In this document: in pieces, positions 54,255 through 56,301 of the stretch
Layout: each line of letters begins with the position of its first letter
How positions within the stretch are numbered: the stretch's first letter is position 1
Origin: Bacteroidales bacterium
GTDB taxonomy: Bacteria; Bacteroidota; Bacteroidia; Bacteroidales; UBA932
Direction: 5' to 3'
DNA: 56,301 nucleotides
Assembly: GCA_017428035.1 (NCBI GenBank)
Contig: JAFRRR010000070.1
Location: 1-56,301 of the forward strand
Notes under the pieces: model-generated
What the model was told of the DNA's origin: nothing
Databases searched by the model: none
What the model saw: the letters and a program-made list of their open reading frames with translations, nothing else
Made by a program: the position numbers and the translations under genes

Positions 54255-55469
54255 TTAGATAAGTTCGTCTTTATGGTTGCCGTAATAGACTCTCAGGGGA
54301 GTGGAAGTAACTTTGATGAAGCCCTTGGCGTCTTCTGCGGTCCAGCCTTTCTGGGTTTCGCCGTATTCGCCAAGTTTGGACTTGAGCAGGTCGTTTTCTG
54401 AATCGACACCCACAGTCTCAAAGCCGTAGGGATGCAGGTTCAAGGTCACTGTTCCGGTCACATTGCGCTGGCTGCTTTGCAGCATAGCCTCTATGTCGCG
54501 CATTACCGGCTCCAGGTACTGGCTCTCGTGCAGGAACATCCCGTACCAGTTTGCCACCTGGTCTTTCCAGTACTGCTGCCACTTGCTCAATGTGAATTTC
54601 TCCAGGAACTTGTGCGCTCCTATAATAAGCATAGGCGCTGCAGCTTCGAAGCCCACGCGGCCCTTGATGCCAATGATGGTGTCTCCCACGTGCATATCGC
54701 GGCCGATGCCGTAGGCGCAGCCAATCTCTTCGATGGCCTGTATGGCGGCTATTTTGTCGCTGTATTTTTTGCCGTTTATCGCGGTGATTTCACCCTCTGT
54801 GAATTCAATGGCCAGAGTTTCGCTGCCGGTCTTGGTCACCTGTTTCAGATAGGCGCTCTCTGGCAGGCCCTGTTTGGAGTCCAGAATCTCGCCGCCGCAG
54901 ATGGAGGTGCCCCAGATGCCGACGTTGTAGGAATATTTCAATTTGGTGAAATCTGCGCTGAAGCCGTTGGCGTTGAGGTAATCAACCTCTTCTTTTCGGG
55001 TCAGGTTGCCGTCGCGGGTCAGGGTGATGATCTCCATATCGGGGCACATCACCAGAAATGTCATATCAAACCGGACCTGGTCGTTGCCGGCGCCGGTAGA
55101 GCCGTGCGCAATGGCGTCGGCCCCAATCTCACGGGCATACTTGGCAATGGCCATCCCCTGGAAAATGCGCTCGGAAGAGACGCTGATAGGGTAGGTGCCG
55201 TTACGCAGCACGTTGCCCCAAATCATATACTTCAGGCTCTTCTCATAATATTCCTGAGTAACGTCCAGGGTGACATATTTGGTTGCGCCCAGCTTGTAGG
55301 CGTTCTCTTCGTTGGTCTTGAGCTGCTCCGGGCTGAATCCGCCGGTATTTGCGCACGCTGCGTGCACTTCATAGCCCTTTTCCTTTGCCAGATACATCAC
55401 GGTGTAGGATGTGTCCAGTCCGCCGCTGAAAGCGACCACTACTTTTTTCTTGCCCATATTTTTATTCAA
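54255..55469 (-). CDS. argG: Argininosuccinate synthase
   Basis: 404 residues; condenses citrulline and aspartate with ATP. The PP-loop motif KKVVVAFSGGLDTSYTVMYLAKEKGYEV and DAIAHGSTGAGNDQVRFD are the family signatures, with a C-terminal ELI end. This is the normal size for the bacterial type I enzyme. It overlaps the upstream GNAT by 8 bp. Confidence 0.96.
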   Translation of the reverse strand: MNKNMGKKKVVVAFSGGLDTSYTVMYLAKEKGYEVHAACANTGGFSPEQLKTNEENAYKLGATKYVTLDVTQEYYEKSLKYMIWGNVLRNGTYPISVSSERIFQGMAIAKYAREIGADAIAHGSTGAGNDQVRFDMTFLVMCPDMEIITLTRDGNLTRKEEVDYLNANGFSADFTKLKYSYNVGIWGTSICGGEILDSKQGLPESAYLKQVTKTGSETLAIEFTEGEITAINGKKYSDKIAAIQAIEEIGCAYGIGRDMHVGDTIIGIKGRVGFEAAAPMLIIGAHKFLEKFTLSKWQQYWKDQVANWYGMFLHESQYLEPVMRDIEAMLQSSQRNVTGTVTLNLHPYGFETVGVDSENDLLKSKLGEYGETQKGWTAEDAKGFIKVTSTPLRVYYGNHKDELI

Positions 55470-56016
55470 TATTAATCTTTATGTGTTCCTTGGGGTCGAA
55501 CAGCAACCCGGTGCAGATGCACCTTTCATAATTGTTTTCTTCCAGGATGTGGAAGTTCTTGCAGCCTTCGCATCCTTTCCAGAATTCGGCATCGTGGGTC
55601 AGATCCTGAAAAGCTACGGGCCGGAAGCCGAGCTCGTAGTTCATTTTCAGAACAGCCGGGCCAGTGGTGATGCTGAATATCTTGGCCCCGGGGAACAGTT
55701 CCCTGGAAAGGCGGAATATGCGCTGCTTTATGCTTTTTGCCAGTCCGATGCCGCGGAATTCGTGGGCTACAATAAGTCCGGAATTTGCCACGAACTGCTT
55801 GCCCTCCCAACTTTCTATATAGGAGAATCCAGCAAAGCGGCCGTCGTCGGTTATGGCAATCACGGCCTTGCCGGCTTTCATTTTTTCTGAAACATACTCA
55901 GGCGTACGCTTGGCGATGCCGGTGCCGCGTTCTTTGGCCGACAGGGCTATTTCGTCGCAAATTGCCTGCGCGAATTTTGTGTGGCTTTCATCGGCCACCA
56001 AAACAGAAATATTCAT
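55462..56016 (-). CDS. GNAT acyltransferase with a four-cysteine tail, candidate N-acylglutamate synthase
   Basis: 184 residues. The acyl-CoA pyrophosphate loop is HEFRGIGLAKSI (85-96; R-G-x-G), and VANSGLIV precedes it as strand 4, placing the protein firmly in the GNAT superfamily. After FRPVAFQDL the C-terminus carries Cys149, Cys152, Cys166 and Cys168 (CEGC and CIC), spaced like a small zinc site. It leads the arginine operon and overlaps argG, and the cluster otherwise lacks argA, argJ or another first enzyme. Acylation of glutamate with acetyl- or succinyl-CoA is therefore a reasonable proposal, not shown by the sequence. Confidence 0.85.
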   Translation of the reverse strand: MNISVLVADESHTKFAQAICDEIALSAKERGTGIAKRTPEYVSEKMKAGKAVIAITDDGRFAGFSYIESWEGKQFVANSGLIVAHEFRGIGLAKSIKQRIFRLSRELFPGAKIFSITTGPAVLKMNYELGFRPVAFQDLTHDAEFWKGCEGCKNFHILEENNYERCICTGLLFDPKEHIKINIE

Positions 56017-56052: not shown

Positions 56053-56180
56053 GTAATGGGATTCTGCTGTCCCGTGGAAATGAGATGGATAAGCCTGCGT
56101 GAAAGGCGAGCTGAAATCGCCCCACCGGCTTAACGTCGGACACGAAATCGAAAGGAATTATGTGTGTTGCTTACCATTAC
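56053..56180 (-). promoter_or_regulatory. Structured leader of the arginine operon, candidate cis-regulatory RNA
   Basis: 128 nt transcribed before the GNAT ATG at 56016. A closing stem GTAATGG / CCATTAC (56174-56180 with 56053-56059) encloses a second stem TAAGCC / GGCTTA (56127-56132 with 56090-56095), itself enclosing a hairpin GGCGA / TCGCC (56117-56121 with 56105-56109). A rival hairpin GGGA / TCCC at 56058-56073 uses the CC bases of the closing stem, so two folds compete. No terminator U-run is seen. It does not match the riboswitch classes I know. Confidence 0.55.
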
Positions 56181-56185
56181 TGGGG

Positions 56186-56193
56186 CAAATGTA
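56186..56193 (-). promoter_or_regulatory. -7 box of the arginine operon
   Basis: TACATTTG on the minus strand; predicted start near 56182, which places the closing stem of the leader at the very 5' end of the transcript. Confidence 0.6.
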
Positions 56194-56246
56194 CACTCCT
56201 TTTTTTATATTAATGCAACAAACAAAAAAATATTTTTAAAAAGATT

Positions 56247-56277
56247 TGGAGGAAAGGAAAAGATGTGTATCTTTGCA
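56247..56277 (+). promoter_or_regulatory. Promoter firing out of the right edge
   Basis: TTTG at 56247-56250, 19-bp spacer, TATCTTTG at 56270-56277: the full Bacteroides consensus. The predicted start is near 56281; the gene served lies outside the window. Confidence 0.7.
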
Positions 56278-56301
56278 GTCCCTTTCGAAAGAGGGGGCAA
56301 G

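Follow-up and report, generated by a model that had tools for sequence, protein, structure and literature searches.

How might an arginine operon be controlled in a genome in which the arginine repressor is not found? The question arises near one end of the window analysed here, a stretch of 56,301 nt that forms an entire contig (G000:C47:1-56301). An operon on its minus strand runs down to 48040 in the order GNAT-argG-argC-argD-carbamoyltransferase-argB-argE/dapE-like-argH, the gene names being those of the best matches, several of them under curated cut-offs. The GNAT gene comes first (55462-56016) and is followed by the argG ORF (54255-55469). The initial annotation had seen no ArgR gene near the operon, and this extends to the whole genome, in which PF01316 was not found at 96.5% completeness. 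No NCBIfam model matched the GNAT protein above its cut-off (best PRK07757, 19 bits vs 154); heading an arginine operon, the protein may replace an acetylglutamate synthase.

Ahead of this operon the initial annotation had placed a structured leader with the layout of a riboswitch or protein-binding RNA, guessing at a ligand from the arginine pathway, and had reported that no attenuator peptide was visible. The idea of a structured, arginine-linked leader is supported by our analysis, which found both an ORF and hairpins. The statement about the peptide has to be withdrawn, because an Arg-rich ORF fills 56177-56130.

The leader ORF and its conservation

The leader ORF (56177-56130, minus strand) encodes MVSNTHNSFRFRVRR in 15 codons and reads ATG GTA AGC AAC ACA CAT AAT TCC TTT CGA TTT CGT GTC CGA CGT TAA. 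Its ATG lies 8 nt after the sequence TACATTTG (56193-56186), which we take to be a -7 promoter box of the Bacteroidota type. The ORF ends with CGT GTC CGA CGT before the TAA stop, and we call these four codons the sensor codons (Arg-Val-Arg-Arg, 56144-56133). In the 34 long ORFs of the window no Arg codon is rarer than CGA, which accounts for 2.3% of their Arg codons.

Of the 26 genomes of the same genus, 19, counting that of the window, yielded the leader in a DNA search of 60 relatives, each time directly before GNAT; the other seven gave no significant leader match. The GNAT draw covered only one of these seven, G016, and no GNAT was found there either. All 19 genus leaders, identified by DNA similarity alone and thus independently of the CGA-based rule described below, end with CGT-G[TC]C-CGA-CG[TC]-TAA, GCC replacing GTC in two of them and CGC replacing the last CGT in one, and their N-termini are variable. 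The same leader core was present in 18 Bacteroidales records, all of them MAGs and for the most part of rumen, reticulum or omasum origin; one is titled Candidatus Equibacterium intestinale.

Beyond the genus, leaders were collected by a rule comprising a TAnnTTT box, an ATG or GTG close behind it, 9-50 codons, and an in-frame GTC, ATC or GCC followed by CGA. Of the 93 family loci examined, 60 have a leader passing the rule ahead of this GNAT gene, yielding 54 distinct peptides of 13-30 codons, in 49 of which the start codon lies 7-9 nt past the box. Arg accounts for 199 of 1015 leader codons, compared with 318 of 4240 in 213 control ORFs that lie behind a TAnnTTT box and lack the codon-pair motif, and CGA makes up 97 of the 199 Arg codons in the leaders vs 34 of the 318 in the controls. 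All 19 ORFs from the control source that did carry the motif turned out to be Arg leaders or their pieces or extensions. A first version of the rule (at least two Arg in the last nine codons) had proven unspecific, since 19 of 56 control ORFs passed it, and was therefore replaced by the codon-pair rule together with a frame-blind check.

This check was made because the codon-pair rule contains CGA, so that the CGA share is partly built in. In the 55 loci (51 distinct) having box, ATG and TCCGA, TCCGA was in frame with the leader ATG in 55 of 55, with no intervening stop, at nine different distances of 28 to 82 nt. The fixed codon pair encodes Val or Ile followed by Arg across genera and is mostly GTC CGA; the peptides are otherwise highly diverse, ranging from RVR-stop to VRRCALAAYSQIR-stop. 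The leader looks real and regulatory, and from the conservation of its frame we infer that the ORF is translated. A further motif, CATA, occurs in the body of 36 of 56 Arg leaders, where shuffling predicts 13.8 (highest count 24 in 200 shuffles), at about +15 to +20 from the ATG (56162-56159 in the window). Given that it is found in all three reading frames, CATA is probably an element at the nucleotide level.

The distribution of the leader was then set against that of ArgR. PF01316 was detected in 8 of 119 family genomes, and in seven of the eight (the exception is G128) ArgR sits on the GNAT contig, just upstream of GNAT. Among the 81 family genomes with a readable GNAT upstream region (G032 and G118, with partial GNAT matches, were left out), a leader was present in 50 of 73 without detected ArgR vs none of 8 with ArgR (P 2.5e-4, uncorrected for kinship); the first leader rule had given 44 of 73 vs 0 of 8. 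The rule found nothing in the remaining 23 ArgR-less genomes, of which many belong to genera g9 and g43. One of the 23 has MYNEATLANHSRIRR before a stop (G079), another a motif-free Arg-rich ORF (G101), and a third is truncated by a contig end (G116). In g9 and g43 (e.g. loci L105 and L083), GNAT is present with neither ArgR nor a rule-passing leader. Across the wider order, GNAT was detected in 76 and ArgR in 89 of 237 genomes. The leader occurred in one of 13 ArgR-less genomes of other families (G362, peptide MNEFYTHIIFVSASGLVRRCR), a sample drawn from 15 GNAT-bearing genomes by leaving out G358 and the weak match G279, and 0 of 10 loci from ArgR-carrying genomes elsewhere passed the rule. 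By eye, other short ORFs containing Arg were seen in G198 and G233.

Hairpins behind the leader ORF

The initial annotation had drawn a 128-nt leader (56180-56053) closed by a perfect 7-bp stem, with a hairpin nested inside and a competing hairpin that could break the stem. All three elements are present as described: the complement GTAATGG/CCATTAC joins 56180-56174 with 56059-56053, the nested hairpin is there, and 56073-56070 can pair with 56061-56058 at the expense of the stem. The region has a minimum free energy of -31.6 kcal/mol (z -1.82), a value that 8 of 200 shuffles also reached and that is only modestly beyond chance. As a conserved feature, the closing stem did not survive comparison within the genus, being perfect in three of 19 leaders, while 10 of the 19 retain at most three of its seven pairs. 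The leader start codon lies within its 5' strand. The covariation that had been proposed as a check was found in two other elements, the hairpins termed P2 and P3.

The 5' arm of P2 (56131-56091) opens with the final two bases of the stop codon; the hairpin covaries in its inner helices and has a folding z of -2.05. A spacer devoid of G follows, unstructured in the fold (56090-56074), and leads to P3, the competing hairpin GGGA-CAGCAGAA-TCCC (56073-56058, arms 56073-56070:56061-56058; covariation, z -2.51). From the end of P3 it is 41 nt to the GNAT ATG, mostly unpaired in the fold except for a small hairpin at the ATG.

Covariation was assessed in an alignment of 16 of the 19 genus leaders, the near-identical L016, L018 and L019 being left out, with pairing in 94.7% of the cells. 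For six pairs both partners change, a count reached by one of 500 shuffles and compared with 0-2 in slid versions. Three of the four P3 pairs are changed on both sides somewhere, and in L023 the helix reads AAGA:UCUU instead of GGGA:UCCC. The count of further pair types was not above shuffles (428/500), the outer helix of P2 did not vary among the 16 leaders, and single-sequence folds of two relatives were not unusual (z -0.70 and -0.93). A fifth pair added to P3 fails in 14 of 16 leaders and was dropped. A UGUCC:GGACA stem between the Arg codons and P3, which would be a mutually exclusive pairing of the classical switch type, showed no covariation and was set aside. Invariant in the alignment are GATTTCAGCTC around the P2 loop (56117-56108, minus strand) and the eight letters of the P3 loop given above (56069-56062, minus strand). 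Neither simple hairpins nor the leader-peptide model given below explain these letters, which may reflect protein binding or mutual pairing.

Outside the genus, the RNA behind the leader ORF is different. A search of 84,980 genomes for the exact P2 core pattern returned this genus only, plus a single match in an unrelated context in Verrucomicrobiales (L167), which we regard as chance. The 56 nt around the stop codon nevertheless fold more stably than shuffles overall (median z -1.44; 35 of 56 below -1, 10 of 56 not below 0), and the first pair lies near the stop codon in 56 of 56, a count without a control.

Probable pausing at arginine codons and possible output steps

The features read directly from the sequence are the ORF, the conservation of its frame, its Arg and CGA bias, the hairpins, and the searches for ArgR and for a U-tract terminator, which came up empty. 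They make it very probable, in our estimate, that the operon is under arginine-sensing leader-peptide control through pausing at Arg codons, an estimate that excludes the Rho step discussed below. In the scheme that we infer for transcription start, translation, pausing, direction of control and output, transcription would start a few nucleotides upstream of the leader AUG, and ribosomes would translate the short ORF ending in Arg codons, including the rare CGA. Under a shortage of charged tRNA-Arg, the ribosome would pause on the CGA and CGT adjoining the stop codon, covering the P2 5' arm rooted in that codon, and the operon would be expressed. When arginine is plentiful, the ribosome would finish and leave, P2 and P3 would fold, and expression would be cut short. 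By the ribosome dimensions that we assume, a ribosome with CGA (56138-56136) in its A site would cover the P2 5' arm.

That this class of mechanism is in use here is indicated by a His leader in the same genome and by Trp leaders in relatives. The His leader, MVFSFVHTHHHHLFFQEV up to its stop, precedes hisG together with a U-tract terminator (L206, G000:C96, minus strand, ~2330-2100). In total, 26 His leaders were obtained from 30 hisG loci, the other four having no usable His-run ORF. Trp leaders with WWW, a hairpin and a U-tract lie upstream of trpE in ten relatives (10/10 by eye; L216, L217, L219-L224, L226 and L227), including four from the genus of the window; a search of the window's genome for trpE itself found none. 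Under one terminator rule, 25 of 26 His leaders vs 11 of 60 Arg leaders had a U-tract terminator, the stretch searched being longer for His than for Arg and all but one His terminator lying 66-90 nt into it. An earlier rule limited to even lengths (11 of 26 His, 4 of 60 Arg) missed known His terminators and was replaced. The rule found no U-tract terminator between the window's Arg leader and the first gene.

For the output step, our first choice, made tentatively, is termination by Rho within the RNA downstream of P2, which is poor in G. Rho is encoded in the window's genome, and the median C-G skew behind the leader is +0.23 in 30 Arg loci vs -0.15 in 24 His loci. Both observations are compatible with Rho-dependent termination, although a low G content ahead of a start codon may also arise for other reasons.

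Classical transcription attenuation, in which P2 acts as a weak intrinsic terminator that the paused ribosome prevents, is a possible output that we hold to be rather unlikely. Seven of the 11 Arg leaders passing the terminator rule belong to the same genus and carry a U-tract after P2 (L014, L015, L017-L020 and L023), which speaks for it; in the window, however, P2 is followed by ATCCATCTC, and 49 of 60 Arg leaders fail the rule that nearly all His leaders pass. Doubtful, in our view, is an output that leaves transcription aside, the paused ribosome acting on how well the operon mRNA is translated or how stable it is. A precedent exists in the speF leader, whose orf34 with its Arg codons works via Rho, ribosome-binding-site access and RNase G (PMC6386406). 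Against such an output in the window stand the distance of 41 nt from P3 to the GNAT ATG and the largely unpaired RNA in between.

Two further readings replace the sensing step itself. The nascent peptide (..VRR) might bind free arginine and stall the ribosome, much like TnaC with tryptophan, so that charged tRNA would not be what is sensed. The Val/Ile-Arg pair kept across genera would suit such an arrest, but the diversity of the remaining peptide would not, and the CGA bias points to codons rather than residues; we consider this reading improbable. The ligand riboswitch guessed at initially is probably wrong, since across genera a translated ORF ending in rare Arg codons is kept while the RNA behind it varies. 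A metabolite-binding RNA with an accidental leader ORF would account for the unvarying letters that the genus has in both hairpin loops, yet it is highly improbable given the conserved frame, the rare-codon bias, and a P2 core confined to one genus (bar the one unrelated match) beside a family-wide ORF type. Our reason for setting it aside is that conservation across genera lies in the ORF rather than in the fold. The initial remark that the leader fits none of the riboswitch classes compared there (TPP, FMN, cobalamin, SAM, glycine, lysine, THF, preQ1, fluoride, ZTP and guanidine) agrees with an Rfam scan, which gave no match; a T-box was likewise rejected, with no minus-strand Rfam match up to E 10.

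Returning to leader-peptide control by pausing, we tentatively propose, at somewhat less than even confidence, a family-wide Arg leader-peptide system where ArgR is missing. It would combine near-leaderless transcripts, the rarest Arg codon as sensor, no intrinsic terminator, and a ribosome that keeps the stop-codon hairpin P2 open and protects the transcript against Rho, with the sensor codons fixed and the RNA behind them rebuilt by genus.

Known systems and the DNA upstream of the leader

Leader-peptide attenuation is textbook knowledge for amino acids such as Trp and His. The His and Trp attenuators resemble the Arg leader in having a short ORF of cognate codons before a biosynthetic operon and hairpins behind it, and differ in having U-tract terminators, which most Arg leaders lack, and in the amino acid, here arginine. 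The fungal arginine attenuator peptide is likewise an arginine-sensing uORF peptide, but it is eukaryotic and stalls with high arginine. A work by Lopatovskaya from 2010 reportedly deals with attenuation. The Bacteroid-trp RNA (RF01692), which we take to be associated with tryptophan, differs from the Arg leader in being named for that amino acid, the Arg leader having no Rfam match.

Published systems provide the remaining comparisons, speF and rbfL coming nearest to the Arg leader. Bacteroid-trp is listed as a cis-regulatory candidate of Bacteroidetes (PMC2864571). In the speF leader of Salmonella, Arg codons of orf34 sense arginine and control ornithine decarboxylase; this leader is like the Arg leader in its Arg codons and lack of an intrinsic terminator, with Rho involved in speF, and unlike it in its target, which is not arginine synthesis, its length of 516 nt and its unrelated sequence (PMC6386406). 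In rbfL of Staphylococcus aureus, arginine shortage is likewise sensed by rare Arg codons in a leader ORF, but the codons are AGA/AGG, and the pause lowers expression of a biofilm regulator gene by blocking its initiation (PMC13009471). The uORF candidates named in the text of PMC8632094 are for cysteine and phenylalanine rather than for arginine. In Flavobacterium psychrophilum, amino-acid operons have been suspected of being under leader-peptide attenuation, the amino acids being unnamed in the text consulted (PMC9723704), and short ORFs reminiscent of leader peptides have been noted in B. thetaiotaomicron (PMC7366714).

The literature searches brought up no leader peptide for arginine biosynthesis. 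The kind of control is already known; the present case is set apart by arginine biosynthesis as its target, the rare-codon sensor and the missing terminator. If Arg leader-peptide control is real, repressor-based control yields to ribosome-based control within one bacterial order, the His and Arg leaders of one genome allow a terminator-bearing leader to be compared with a terminator-free one in a natural setting, and arginine control in many uncultured gut Bacteroidales would be readable from sequence.

Upstream of the leader, the fetched genus loci share a further peculiarity, in that their contigs break off within ~60 to 830 nt of the leader match on its upstream side. An Rfam search of the stretches around the leader in nine loci found no ribosomal or other known RNA accounting for these breaks. 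In the window, the 79 bases at 56223-56301 are repeated near the ends of three other contigs (C93, 100%; C122 and C62, 85%) and contain a plus-strand TATCTTTG box at 56268-56275. The stretch is likely part of a multi-copy gene whose reading direction is away from the operon.
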